Both the position numbers and the translations under genes were made by a program. From Chitinophaga sp. XS-30 (GTDB lineage: Bacteria; Bacteroidota; Bacteroidia; Chitinophagales; Chitinophagaceae), in the NCBI RefSeq assembly GCF_008086345.1, contig NZ_CP043006.1, positions 618,032 to 682,031 of the forward strand: a DNA stretch of 64,000 bases. The letters run 5' to 3'. Shown piece after piece: positions 1,102 to 54,307 of the stretch. Each line of letters opens with the position of its first letter. Position 1 is the stretch's first letter. Below the pieces are notes generated by a model, which searched no databases, was not told the origin of the DNA, and saw nothing but the letters and a program-made list of their open reading frames with translations.

Positions 1102-1449
1102 TTACTGGTCCTGGTTCTTCAGTTTTTCTTCGAATTTCTTGTAAAAGTCCGTGGCGAACGTCCGCAGATCATTGGCAAGGTCCGCATACGGCGTGGCACG
1201 CTGATAGGTATCCGCCATGGTCATCATGGTCTGGTAAAAGAAATCTGCCATTTCATCCACCATCATTTCCTTGGTCCACAGGTCTATCCGGAGCGCTGTT
1301 TTGTCCGCCCCGTCCCAAAAGGCCACCATCATTGCCTTTGCCTTGTTCATACGGTCTGCCGTACTGTCGGACGCTGTCCATTCTATGCTTTCCGGCACTT
1401 TGTTCTCATCCAGCGCTACCTGTATCTGTATGGAAGATTTTTTTGTCAT
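1102..1449 (-). CDS. gldC: Gliding motility protein GldC
   Basis: A 115-residue soluble protein without a signal peptide, matching GldC in length and sequence pattern (N-terminal beta strands beginning TKKSSIQIQVALDENKVPE, an acidic DELM-like middle, and a Lys-rich end). GldC is encoded in gliding and many non-gliding Bacteroidota and contributes to efficient gliding in Flavobacterium johnsoniae; it is thought to be cytoplasmic and its activity is unknown. Here it heads the probable operon gldC, yqeY-like, cvpA rather than sitting beside gldB. A candidate -7 element on the minus strand (TATTTTTG, 1469-1476) lies just upstream, without a clear -33 partner. Confidence 0.88.
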   Translation of the reverse strand: MTKKSSIQIQVALDENKVPESIEWTASDSTADRMNKAKAMMVAFWDGADKTALRIDLWTKEMMVDEMADFFYQTMMTMADTYQRATPYADLANDLRTFATDFYKKFEEKLKNQDQ

Positions 1450-42776: not shown

Positions 42777-43244
42777 CTATTCTACCACGTTAATGGTGCG
42801 GGTAAAGCTCTCTTCAAGCGAAATAAATGTTTCGGTGCGTTCGATCCCTTTGATCTTTTGGAGTTCGTCGTGCAGCACACGGCGCAGGGAAGAGATATCC
42901 TTGCAGATGATCTCGGCAAACATGCTCCAGCCGCCAGTGGTGTAATTCAGCCGGACAATTTCAGGCATTTTACGTAATTCCTTGGCTACCGTGTCGTACA
43001 TGGAACTCTTTTCCAGGAAAATGCCGATAAACGCGATCACGTCATAGCCGATCATTTTTAAATCCACATGCAATCTCGTACCTTTAACAATACGCAGTTC
43101 CTGTAGTTTCTTCATACGCACGTGGATCGTTCCGCCTGAAACGAAGAGCTTCTTCCCAAGGTCAGCATAAGAGATTTCTGCGTTAGACATCATCTCACTG
43201 ATGATCTGAAGGTCCAGTTTGTCAATATTCAAATTGTGGCTCAT
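42777..43244 (-). CDS. Lrp/AsnC family transcriptional regulator
   Basis: A 155-residue regulator with an N-terminal winged helix-turn-helix (about 5-62, EISYADLGKKLFVSGGTIHVRMKKL is the HTH region) and a C-terminal RAM effector domain (about 70-150). Lrp-type proteins usually bind amino acids and control amino-acid metabolism. It is convergent with the tryptophan dioxygenase gene, so control of that gene is possible but unproven. Its promoter lies in the AT-rich gap that also holds the promoter of the tRNA-like RNA. Confidence 0.93.
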   Translation of the reverse strand: MSHNLNIDKLDLQIISEMMSNAEISYADLGKKLFVSGGTIHVRMKKLQELRIVKGTRLHVDLKMIGYDVIAFIGIFLEKSSMYDTVAKELRKMPEIVRLNYTTGGWSMFAEIICKDISSLRRVLHDELQKIKGIERTETFISLEESFTRTINVVE

Positions 43245-43327: not shown

Positions 43328-43359
43328 TTTGCAAAAAATACCCCCTCTCTTTAGATTTG
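43328..43359 (+). promoter_or_regulatory. Promoter of the tRNA-like transcript
   Basis: TTTG (43328-43331), 20 nt, TAGATTTG (43352-43359) is a full match to the Bacteroidota housekeeping promoter TTTG-N19/21-TAnnTTTG. Transcription should start near 43366. The next feature downstream is the tRNA-like domain, with a terminator at 43589-43625. Confidence 0.8.
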
Positions 43360-43445
43360 CATTATTGTTATTGACAACAAGCCCAGTCCAGACAAGCTGG
43401 TTCAGTGCCCGAAAGTAGCATTTAAACGGCAGTCGGATTAAACTT

Positions 43446-43587
43446 TGTGGGATGATGGAACTGGCAGACATGCCCTCTCGTCTCGGGGGTGAGGATCACG
43501 GGATAAACGTAGCGTAATGGGTTGACCACTAATCTTATTTGTGCTATGGCTAACCGCCTCGTGTAGGTTCGACTCCTACTCCTACAG
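43446..43587 (+). tRNA. tRNA-like RNA (class II, Leu/Ser style) with giant variable region
   Basis: All but one part of a tRNA can be drawn. The acceptor stem TGTGGGA (43446-43452) pairs with TCCTACA (43580-43586), with one G-U pair. T8-G9 is followed by a 3-bp D stem ATG/CAT with loop GAACTGGCAGA, typical of tRNA-Leu. A 5-bp anticodon stem CCCTC/GGGGG follows. The T arm GTAGG-TTCGACT-CCTAC is perfect. The discriminator base is G (43587), and CCA is not encoded. Two parts are abnormal. The anticodon loop is TCGTCTC, with C instead of T at position 33 and nominal anticodon GTC. The variable region is 73 nt (43490-43562), closed by GAGG/CCTC with an inner GGTTG-x-CCA hairpin. Total length is 142 nt against 85-95 for normal class II tRNAs. 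It has its own promoter and terminator. It may be a functional odd tRNA, a regulatory tRNA mimic or a decayed gene. Confidence 0.5.
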
Positions 43588-43588
43588 C

Positions 43589-43625
43589 AAAAAAGGCTGT
43601 ACCAAACGTTGGTACAGCCTTTTTT
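43589..43625 (+). terminator. Intrinsic terminator of the tRNA-like transcript
   Basis: Perfect 17-bp stem AAAAAAGGCTGTACCAA / TTGGTACAGCCTTTTTT with a 3-nt loop and a T-run. It begins two bases after the discriminator base, so the RNA is a free-standing transcript not joined to trmB. Confidence 0.95.
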
Positions 43626-43687: not shown

Positions 43688-44398
43688 ATGGGACAAAAGA
43701 AATTACAACGGTTCGCAGAAATAGAGACTTTCCCGAATGTGCTCATCTATCCGGAAAGGATGCAGGGCAAGTGGCCTGAACACTTTGGGAACAGTCATCC
43801 GCTGACATTGGAACTGGCCTGCGGAAAAGGGGATTACACCCTGGGCCTGGCCCGCCTGTACCCGGAACGGAACTTTATGGGGGTAGACGTGAAAGGCAAC
43901 CGCATCTGGCGGGGCGCCAAAACTGCGCTCACGGAGCAACTCGGCAATGTGGCCTTCCTGCGCACCCAGATCGATAAACTGCCGGATTATTTTCTGCCGG
44001 GGGAAGTAAAAGAGATATGGATCACCTTCCCGGACCCTTTCCTCCGGAAGTCCAGGGCCCGGCACCGGCTCACACATCCCAGGTTCCTGGGCCTTTACCA
44101 GCAGGTATTGGTTCCCGGAGGCACGGTGAACCTCAAAACGGATTCCCCCCAGCTGTACAAATTCACCCGAATGGTGATCGCCGCTACCGGCTGTACCCTG
44201 CTGGAAGACATTCCGGATGTGTACGCACAACAAAATATCGATCCGCTGCTGCGCATCCGGACCTTTTATGAAGGCATGCACCTGGCGGACGGCAGAACCA
44301 TCCGCTTCCTTAAATTTGTATTGCCCGCACAACCGATAGACTGGAAAGCGGTAAAACTGGATATGGACGATGAAGAAAGCGCTGGAGGAGAACATTGA
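43688..44398 (+). CDS. trmB: tRNA (guanine-N7)-methyltransferase
   Basis: Methylates G46 in the variable region of tRNAs using S-adenosylmethionine; 236 residues from the ATG at 43688. The frame is open further upstream, but those codons run into the terminator and tRNA-like RNA. The SAM-binding motif is LELACGKGDYTLGLA, and the tRNA-binding motif is TFPDPFLRKSRARHRLTHP. The gene lies 62 nt after the terminator of the tRNA-like RNA and overlaps the DUF5522 gene by 29 nt. It is notable that a variable-region-modifying enzyme sits beside a tRNA-like RNA with an abnormal variable region, though this may be chance. Confidence 0.93.
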   Translation: MGQKKLQRFAEIETFPNVLIYPERMQGKWPEHFGNSHPLTLELACGKGDYTLGLARLYPERNFMGVDVKGNRIWRGAKTALTEQLGNVAFLRTQIDKLPDYFLPGEVKEIWITFPDPFLRKSRARHRLTHPRFLGLYQQVLVPGGTVNLKTDSPQLYKFTRMVIAATGCTLLEDIPDVYAQQNIDPLLRIRTFYEGMHLADGRTIRFLKFVLPAQPIDWKAVKLDMDDEESAGGEH

Positions 44399-52840: not shown

Positions 52841-54277
52841 TTAAAACTCCGCGTTCTTGGGTGTGCGCGGGAAGGGGATCACATCGCGGATATTGGTCAT
52901 GCCGCTGACGAACAGCACCAGGCGTTCGAAACCAAGACCAAAACCGGAATGGGGCGCAGTGCCGAAACGGCGGGTATCCAGGTACCAGCTCAGCTCTTCC
53001 ACCGGAACGTTCATGGCTTTCATGCGTTCCACCAGTTTTTCGTAGCTCTCTTCCCGTTGTGAACCGCCAACGATCTCACCGATGCCGGGGAAGAGAATAT
53101 CCATGGCCCGGACGGTTTTGCCGTCGTCATTGCGTTTCATGTAGAATGATTTGATGGCGGCGGGGTAATCCGTCAGGATCACCGGCTTTTTGAAATGTTT
53201 TTCCACCAGGTAACGCTCATGCTCGCTCTGCAGATCAGCCCCCCATTCTTCCACGATGTACTGGAATTTCTTGTTCTTGTTGGGTTTGCTGTTCTTCAGG
53301 ATGTCGATAGCCGTTGTATAGGTGATGCGTTCAAACTTGTTGTTCAGCACAAATTCCAGCTTCTCGATCAATCCCATTTCACTGCGTTCCTGCTGGGGTT
53401 TCTGCTTTTCTTCATCGGCCAGGCGTTGCGCCAGGAAGTCCAGGTCTTCCCGGTTATGCTGCAGTGCGTAGCCGATCACGTATTTGATGAATTTCTCGGC
53501 AAGGTCCATATTATCGTTCAGGTCGTAGAACGCCATTTCCGGCTCTATCATCCAGAACTCGGCGAGGTGGCGGGCGGTGTTGGAGTTTTCCGCACGAAAG
53601 GTAGGCCCGAAAGTGTAGATCTCCCCGAATGCCATGGCGCCCAGCTCACCTTCCAGCTGGCCGGATACGGTGAGGTTGGTGGAACGGCCGAAGAAGTCCT
53701 CTTTAAAATCGATCTCTCCTTCCGCGTTCCGGGGCGGATTTTTCAGGTCCAGCGTGGTTACGCGGAACATTTCCCCGGCGCCTTCCGCATCGGAGGCGGT
53801 GATGATAGGGGTATGCAGGTACACGAAGCCCTTATCATTAAAGAACTGGTTTACGGCGAAGGCCAGGGAATGGCGCAGGCGGAAAACGGCGCCAAATGTG
53901 TTGGTCCGGAAGCGCAGGTGTGCGATCTCCCGCAGGAATTCCAGGCTTTGTTTCTGGGGCTGTATGGGGTAAGCCTCCGCATCGCAGTCGCCCAGCACTT
54001 CGAGTACAGCAGCTTTCAGTTCCAGCTTCTGCCCTTTGCCCAGGGAAGGTATCACCTCTCCGGTAACGCTGATGGCGGCACCGCGGGTGAGCCGCCGGAA
54101 TTCAGCGGGGTCCATTTGTTCCGGGTCTACCACGATCTGCAGGTTATTATTGGTAGAGCCATCGTTCAATGCTATAAACTGGTTGTTACGGAAAGTGCGT
54201 ATCCATCCCTTTACCGTTACTGCATAGTTTGTCTGGTCGCTGGACAAGATCTGTTTGATCTTCACTCTTTGGCTCAT
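52841..54277 (-). CDS. asnS: Asparaginyl-tRNA synthetase
   Basis: Class IIb aminoacyl-tRNA synthetase charging tRNA-Asn, 478 residues from the Met at 54277; the frame extends 10 codons further but [11 protein letters not shown] is the natural start. It has an N-terminal OB-fold anticodon-binding domain (about 1-115), motif 2 with [19 protein letters not shown] and motif 3 with [15 protein letters not shown]. Length and motifs are standard. It is monocistronic and divergent from rho. Confidence 0.96.
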
Positions 54278-54307
54278 ATCAATAATAAATTTTATAATGA
54301 GTTGCAA

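Follow-up and report, generated by a model that had tools for sequence, protein, structure and literature searches.

A conserved tRNA-like RNA of 143 nt is encoded in Chitinophaga sp. XS-30, within the 64,000-nucleotide stretch of DNA analyzed here (the window), and is found mainly in one branch of Bacteroidota and in some large phages. We consider the chances somewhat better than even that this RNA receives aspartate from AspRS and, as a likely second step, is amidated by GatCAB, which would make it a dedicated non-decoding carrier for making asparagine. Sequence comparison points to this reading through conservation, covariation, identity elements split between two sets, an anticodon loop that has lost decoding features, linkage to an AsnC-like gene and co-occurrence with gatB, and a carrier would account for all of this evidence in the simplest way.

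The RNA occupies positions 43446–43588 on the plus strand, ends with G73-C74, and is delimited by conservation and by the covariation of its cloverleaf. Upstream, the window sequence reads TTTG-N20-TAGATTTG (43328–43359, plus strand; TTTG at 43328–43331 and TAGATTTG at 43352–43359), which we take to be a Bacteroidetes-type promoter motif; directly downstream lies an intrinsic terminator hairpin (43589–43625, plus strand). A first-pass annotation had described a free-standing tRNA-like RNA between promoter- and terminator-like motifs at 43328–43625; the sequence is as described, and the RNA proved to be conserved and covarying. Comparable signals flank other members of the family, with TTG-N17-23-TANNTTTG found in 68/144 distinct upstream sequences (100 mononucleotide shuffles gave a mean of 1.3) and a terminator-like hairpin following the RNA in 107/144 (4 in one shuffle set), and we infer transcription from the promoter-like motif. 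The presumed transcript would begin with an 80-nt leader (43366–43445, plus strand). This leader, also noted before, does precede the RNA but is not conserved, as BLASTN alignments begin after it, from about query position 76–87.

Within the window copy, the acceptor stem TGTGGGA/TCCTACA is followed by U8 G9 and by a D arm (43455–43471) with the stem AUG/CAU (A10 U11 G12/C23 A24 U25) and a Leu-like D loop GGCAGA, supported by D-stem covariation. The anticodon arm (43473–43489; stem CCCUC/GGGGG) carries the loop UCGUCUC with the nominal anticodon GUC, assigned with the help of loop counts in 66 distinct members. The variable region spans 73 nt (43490–43562) and consists of a base stem GAGG/CCUC, an inner 3-bp stem, the strands GGGAUAAAC and GGCUAAC and a GGGUUGACCAC hairpin, with covariation in the V-stem. 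The T arm GUAGG-UUCGACU-CCUAC, the 3′ acceptor strand, G73 and C74 complete the RNA (43563–43588; T-stem covariation and end counts), and all of these parts lie on the plus strand. G73-C74 closes 69/69 full-length member rows found by BLAST or the covariance model. Since C74 is also encoded by the listed tRNA genes of the XS-30 genome, the 3′ end of the RNA is that of an ordinary tRNA, and CCA is presumably completed as on those tRNAs. The same genome holds a second copy of the RNA.

The distribution of the RNA was followed at several taxonomic depths. Using a 271-nt query, BLASTN matched it in 79/79 Chitinophaga genomes, the best match starting in the tRNA-like part in all of them except the XS-30 genome itself and one other (G009), and in 203/294 genomes and 74/101 genera of the family sample. 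A covariance model built from 33 sequences separates members (at least 54 bits, about 100–215 nt) from ordinary class II tRNAs, which score at most 48.5 bits. It finds members in 68/395 genomes of the class sample, under 19 family labels by hand count, and among the 395 genomes sampled from the phylum, members beyond the class come from three genomes of one further family; these large searches applied strict filters and scored few candidates, so that a few genomes counted as lacking the RNA may be false negatives. Homologues and covariation, named as a check in the first-pass annotation, were thus both found. A pattern scan of named genomes returned at least 120 stretches with the RNA. The stretches listed belong, by title and presumed taxonomy, mostly to Chitinophagales, Cytophagales and Sphingobacteriales, and also include several titled merely Bacteroidetes, one Cellulophaga and two Ignavibacteria MAGs. 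A search for carriage on plasmids gave no match.

The RNA is also arranged in tandem, in arrays of two to five copies, and in some of these the units lie about 20 nt apart. In one head-to-tail array (L187) five copies of two forms of different length alternate, and in another (L168) three copies are separated by 13 nt between model matches and about 20 nt between units. Two partial copies (L149:979–1046 and 1297–1364, minus strand) retain the core of the variable arm together with the beginning of the T arm and lack the 5′ half; these two and a weak match in L184 were removed before members were counted.

The cloverleaf is supported by compensatory changes. In 33 family sequences, 98.8% of cells in the cloverleaf and variable-arm stems are paired, and the covariation score is 0.241, where shuffling gives 0.135 and sliding the partners no more than 0.094. 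In the 131 distinct members drawn from 100 loci, all four Watson-Crick types occur at acceptor pairs 3-70 and 4-69, anticodon pairs 29-41 and 30-40 and T pair 50-64, while D pair 10-25 takes three types (A-U, G-C and U-A, with U-U in 8/131). The poorest pairing is seen at T-stem 51-63 (114/131), 29-41 (118/131), 50-64 (119/131) and 10-25 (123/131). The V-stem pairs covary between A-U/G-C and G-C/A-U, in a variable region that ranges from 24 to 123 nt. The tRNA core is kept, with U8-G9 in 130/131 members, a D loop of GGCAGA, GGCAGC, GGTAGA, GGCAAA or GGAAGA in 131/131, and the T loop TTCGA in 127/131 and TTCAA in 2/131. By eye, many bacterial members share strands resembling GGAUAAAC and GGCUAAC, and viral members show variants of them. 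The D loop can be as long as 34 nt, long loops belonging to viral members, and hairpin-like D-loop insertions were seen in the viral members L308, L339, L342, L356 and L363.

Energy folding alone could not have revealed the RNA, because the folding energy of its tRNA-like part is unremarkable (z −0.94) and the minimum-energy fold is not the cloverleaf. RNAalifold, run on Chitinophagaceae sequences alone, favours two other hairpins in the D/anticodon region; the divergent members settle the fold as a cloverleaf. Three further candidates were set aside. A group I or other intron within a tRNA is rejected on the 24–123-nt range of the variable region and the covarying V-stem, and self-pairing between GUC in the loop and GAC in the GGGUUGACCAC hairpin is unlikely, the hairpin being absent from the short forms. 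A known Rfam family was likewise rejected: the proposed Rfam search gave no family at gathering score on the window copy, nor did any family, RF00005 included, reach it on members in seven related loci. A relaxed scan of the window RNA up to E 10 yielded 13 matches, mostly to the terminator hairpin and all below gathering scores, without a Y RNA among them; for the tmRNA model RF00023, which gave members no gathering match, it showed only a 17-nt T-arm fragment at 8.3 bits.

ARAGORN called no tRNA in the window or in three related loci (L112–L114), whereas it labels 94–98-nt viral forms as tRNA-Asp. That ARAGORN misses the RNA, and that partial copies lie near L149, could suggest a functionless tRNA copy, either selfish or decayed, decay being one of the possibilities raised at first. 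We give this reading a chance close to nil, as it is contradicted by the covariation, the presence in every genome of the genus sampled, the promoter- and terminator-like flanks and the near-invariant identity positions. Instead, the suggestion of a new class of odd tRNA has stood up, in the form of a conserved family with covarying stems whose tested copies escape both ARAGORN and Rfam.

Next, we analyzed the anticodon loop of 66 distinct members, all of them recovered with whole-length BLAST or the model, leaving out pattern-found members because the pattern fixes part of the loop. The loop follows the outline Y-N-G-U-C-Y-C, with G34 in 63/66, U35 and C36 in 66/66 each and C38 in 64/66, next to the G73 of 69/69 rows. 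These are the positions that the portion of PMC9976931 available to us gives as strong aspartate determinants (G73, G34, U35, C36 and C38). Position 37, by comparison, is U in 60, C in 3 and G in 3 members, hence a pyrimidine in 63/66 and a purine in 3/66, and position 33 is U in 53, G in 7 and C in 6. The C33 pointed out earlier is therefore present in the window copy but is a minority variant. In the ordinary tRNAs taken from viral stretches and the XS-30 genome, position 33 is U in 363/366 and position 37 a purine in 363/366; this set was found by ARAGORN, which is itself biased to normal loops. Canonical tRNA-Asp has the loop CTGTCAC in all 12 distinct sequences from the XS-30 genome and phage contigs; the commonest loops of the RNA, TTGTCTC and CTGTCTC (45/66), differ from it at position 37, and TTGTCTC also at 32. 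As G34, U35, C36 and C38 are near-invariant and U33 and purine-37 are not, the loop, to judge by these counts, has kept the positions read by AspRS and not those required on the ribosome.

These counts bear on the reading of the RNA as a long-armed aspartate isoacceptor that translates under some condition. The anticodon GUC, the normal T arm, G18-G19 and U8 agree with a decoding tRNA, as does its place among phage tRNA genes, where in 31 of 59 viral contigs an ordinary tRNA is no more than 10 nt away. We nevertheless regard decoding as distinctly unlikely, given that pyrimidine-37 (63/66) and a non-U33 (13/66) each have a counterpart in 3/366 ordinary tRNAs, that a canonical tRNA-Asp is already present in the XS-30 genome and in 11/15 tRNA-rich viral stretches, and that the aspartate pair G1-C72 is replaced by U1-A72.

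The acceptor end bears what would be an amidation mark. U1-A72 is found in 66/66 members, and position 20a is A in 66/66 when the D-loop GG is taken as 18-19. In the XS-30 genome, U1-A72 is confined to tRNA-Asn and tRNA-Gln, and tRNA-Asp has G1-C72. As stated in the accessible text of PMC9976931, U1-A72 lets GatCAB amidate Asp-tRNA-Asn, while G1-C72 and U20a bar Asp-tRNA-Asp. By these sequence criteria, the RNA unites identity sets that sit on separate tRNAs of its own genome. The combination of a Leu-like D loop with a G discriminator and GUC, remarked on at first sight, is confirmed and central to the interpretation; it can now be described as a Leu-like body bearing aspartate identity elements plus U1-A72. 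Two aspartate elements, G1-C72 and G10, are missing; the former is replaced by U1-A72, and position 10 is A, G or U. Position 34 is C or U in 3/66 members. These three divergent members (L179, L186 and L176, of families f70, f36 and f71) have a Glu-like YUC and may take another amino acid. As a separate observation, the XS-30 genome also contains an odd class II tRNA with the anticodon CCA and a badly paired acceptor end (L108:1927–2012; G000:C1:1481928–1482007), which scores 34.3 bits against RF00005; the ordinary tRNA-Trp of this genome is located elsewhere.

With its long arm and G73, the RNA could also be charged with serine by SerRS, as allo-tRNAs or tRNA-Sec are. Serine elements, according to the available part of PMC9976931, include G73, G2-C71 and a large variable region, and the allo-tRNA/tRNA-Sec group, as covered by the part of PMC7609411 at hand, shares an unusual class II structure, a long variable arm and G73 with the RNA, some allo-tRNAs even having GUC. 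Those tRNAs, however, have 8/4, 9/3 or 8/5 stems and are SerRS-charged, whereas the RNA has acceptor and T stems of 7 and 5 bp and a loop conserved as for AspRS. The nucleotide at N-1 is T in 60, C in 58, A in 12 and G in 1 of 131 members, so there is no constant eighth acceptor pair with G73. Position 72 is A and not C, C11-G24 occurs in 18/131 and G30-C40 in 12/131 members, and the conserved GUC and C38 would be left unexplained, since serine identity does not depend on the anticodon (PMC9976931, in the same part). We therefore rate serine charging as very improbable.

As a next step, we compared gene content in 80 genomes, hand-picked from 123 for completeness and family spread before any gatB result: 40 with a model match of at least 54 bits and 40 without a model match. 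One genome with a BLAST match and no model match (G202) lies outside this set. gatB is present in 40/40 RNA-bearing and 22/40 RNA-minus genomes, and GlnRS exceeds the cut-off in 29/40 and 22/40, respectively. Among GlnRS-bearing genomes of the class, gatB accompanies the RNA in 29/29 cases and occurs in 1/18 genomes without it (Fisher 6.6e-12, with kinship ignored); with four genomes from outside the class included, the counts are 29/29 and 5/22, the exceptions being G541 within the class and the four outside it. The contrast also holds within families, all genomes having GlnRS, with gatB in 8/8 against 0/3 genomes of one family (f1) and 5/5 against 0/2 of another (f61); genomes of one family, like tandem copies, are not independent. 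Where RNA-minus genomes of the families f70 and f24 keep gatB, GlnRS is absent, and these genomes would therefore need GatCAB for glutamine.

The XS-30 genome encodes AsnRS, GlnRS and a single AspRS of bacterial type; it also has gatB and one or more AsnB-family proteins. With AsnRS, GlnRS, a single bacterial-type AspRS and gatB all there, GatCAB is left without an obvious ordinary tRNA task in this genome. The AsnRS gene itself lies in the window (52841–54307, minus strand; TIGR00457 at 584 bits, cut-off 342.6), which gives the genome a direct route to Asn-tRNA. It is about 9 kb from the RNA, and in G091 an AsnRS gene lies within about 8 kb of the RNA. Among ten further genomes whose RNA flanks were examined, AsnRS was seen in that one; as AsnRS is confirmed in the XS-30 genome and G091 only, GatCAB could serve tRNA-Asn elsewhere.

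GatCAB might be retained to act on Asp-tRNA-Asn that a non-discriminating AspRS produces, with the RNA merely sharing its history. The text of PMC4206432, as far as it was accessible, discusses asparagine synthesis on tRNA-Asn, reports a non-discriminating AspRS with GatCAB for Bdellovibrio, and lists Bacteroidetes among the genera that have AsnRS, GlnRS and GatCAB and are without an asparagine synthetase. The U1-A72 of the XS-30 tRNA-Asn is in line with such a role. Because it leaves the aspartate identity and U1-A72 of the RNA unexplained, as well as its AsnC-like linkage, we find this account quite improbable.

We also considered whether the RNA stands in for asparagine synthetases. AsnB-family proteins exceed the cut-off in 68/80 genomes and in 33/40 RNA-bearing ones, XS-30 included, and AsnA does so in 2/40 RNA-bearing genomes. 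Genomes lacking AsnB were assigned from best E-values and the 68/80 tally, and on this basis the loss of both AsnA and AsnB is not tied to the RNA (7/40 RNA-bearing versus 5/40 RNA-minus genomes, p = 0.76). The absence of AsnA or AsnB as a general rule is thus not borne out, and with an AsnB-family protein in 33/40 of them the RNA is not generally the sole route to asparagine. The seven RNA-bearing genomes with neither enzyme above the cut-off were counted in favour of the carrier.

The genomic neighbourhood adds a regulator. In the window, an AsnC-like gene of the Lrp/AsnC family (42777–43244, minus strand) is divergent from the RNA; it contains the Pfam domains AsnC_trans_reg and HTH_AsnC-type, and its best PDB match is E. 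coli AsnC (2cg4, E 8.5e-32, against 5.1e-9 for Lrp). Among NCBIfam models, AsnC is the best family with 153 bits, below the cut-off of 227, and Lrp reaches 52 bits. E. coli AsnC controls asparagine synthetase A. An Lrp/AsnC-family gene is divergently adjacent to the RNA in 111 of 132 loci, with a median gap of 156 nt; the 132 include repeat fetches and hold 99 distinct intergenic sequences. Of the 111, 25 come from families other than that of the window (two of them repeats), under 14 family labels. In the remaining 21/132 loci, which include the second XS-30 copy and loci of f18 and f24, the regulator is not within reach. An AsnC-like gene was also found in 81 of the 120 named 8-kb stretches listed, where the RNA may sit near the edge of the stretch. 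Palindromes occur in 40/99 intergenic sequences against 13.4 in mononucleotide shuffles; as AsnC sites they were set aside, being merely suggestive given the AT-rich DNA. A TrmB (tRNA m7G46 methyltransferase) gene lies directly 3′ of the RNA in the window (43688–44398). TrmB homologues are near the RNA in 42/132 loci, every one from Chitinophagaceae, and because of this confinement trmB was rejected as a functional partner.

An AsnC-like neighbour suggests amino-acid regulation, which would also suit an aspartate-accepting decoy or sensor, charged or bound by AspRS, that tunes AspRS/tRNA-Asp or reports the aspartate/asparagine state, GatCAB not being its enzyme. The conservation of AspRS determinants and not of decoding features is in keeping with this idea. 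Yet it leaves the invariant U1-A72 and the co-occurrence with gatB unexplained, and the place of the RNA among phage tRNA genes better suits a useful product, so that we judge it unlikely. A mimic that sequesters synthetases, as the first-pass annotation had also considered, explains less of the evidence.

Besides bacteria, viruses carry the RNA. Its pattern, which fixes part of the loop, was found in 59 IMG/VR viral contigs, and 59/59 reach a model score of at least 55 bits, one of them cut by the end of the stretch. An ordinary tRNA lies within 1 kb of the viral RNA in 48/59 and within 10 nt in 31/59, the nearest being tRNA-Ser in 34/48; a tmRNA is present in 11 viral stretches, and a canonical tRNA-Asp in 11 of the 15 that hold at least ten other tRNAs. 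A viral form of 101 nt (L323, L327, L344, L348 and L349) has a short variable arm, A1-U72 and the loop TTGTCTC, and ARAGORN labels it tRNA-Asp among the copies listed. In GenBank, the RNA was found without annotation in one 636-kb record of an uncultured phage, and another viral query had no match in that collection.

The RNA can also be compared with known systems. Like tRNA-Asn and tRNA-Gln, the GatCAB substrates of indirect aminoacylation and the transamidosome, the RNA has U1-A72 and, by prediction, would pass through an amidated Asp-charged intermediate. It departs from them in GUC and C38, which should make it chargeable by an ordinary discriminating AspRS, in a loop unfit for decoding and a long variable-arm domain, and in a host that also has AsnRS and GlnRS. 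With tRNA-Asp it shares G34, U35, C36, C38 and G73, the commonest loops differing at 37 (and 32), whereas U1-A72, a Leu-like class II body, the 24–123-nt variable region and pyrimidine-37 set it apart. The 3-bp D stem, U8-G9, the D loop ending GGNAGA and the long variable arm are common to tRNA-Leu, which differs in having A73 and neither the Asp-type loop nor the extra variable-arm domain. The tmRNA is likewise tRNA-like, free-standing and carried by phages beside tRNAs; unlike it, the RNA possesses both a D stem and a complete anticodon arm, and no ORF for a tag was seen. Bacterial Y RNAs such as YrlA are non-coding RNAs with a tRNA-like module, in contrast to the complete cloverleaf found here, which is closed by its own 5′ and 3′ ends. 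In open-access PubMed Central texts we found no description of the RNA, nor is it mentioned in the accessible parts of PMC7609411 (unusual tRNAs), PMC8450103 (tRNAscan-SE) and PMC7162821 (huge phages).

For the preferred carrier, the following course can be proposed. The RNA would be transcribed, then processed and CCA-completed like tRNAs; AspRS would charge it with aspartate via G34, U35, C36, C38 and G73; and GatCAB, guided by U1-A72, would turn this aspartate into asparagine. Pyrimidine-37 and the variable-arm domain may keep the RNA off the ribosome, an exclusion that we propose because asparagine on a GUC tRNA would otherwise enter at aspartate codons. The AsnC-like protein would control the RNA, and asparagine would be released or passed to some acceptor. 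The RNA would thus be a second candidate substrate of GatCAB beside tRNA-Asn, with no need for a non-discriminating AspRS. The complete scheme, an RNA-based amino-acid factory aspartylated by ordinary AspRS, converted by GatCAB to Asn-RNA, releasing asparagine off the ribosome under an AsnC-type switch and copied by large phages for themselves, we put at a little short of even. Against the carrier stand the missing G1-C72 and G10, the 3/66 members with C or U at position 34, the viral A1-U72, a regulator scoring below the AsnC cut-off and the 21/132 loci without the regulator.

Altogether, these results reveal a widespread RNA family whose tested copies go unrecognized by ARAGORN and Rfam. Its carriage among phage tRNA genes suggests that the RNA matters during infection, where, as a guess, phages might gain a supply of asparagine. 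If the carrier reading is true, this would be, to our knowledge, the first case of a tRNA-like RNA that serves to make an amino acid and not to decode. It would also explain why many Bacteroidota retain GatCAB despite having GlnRS and, where checked, AsnRS, a pattern raised in the part of PMC4206432 available to us. In that case, tRNA-dependent amino-acid synthesis would be separable from decoding.
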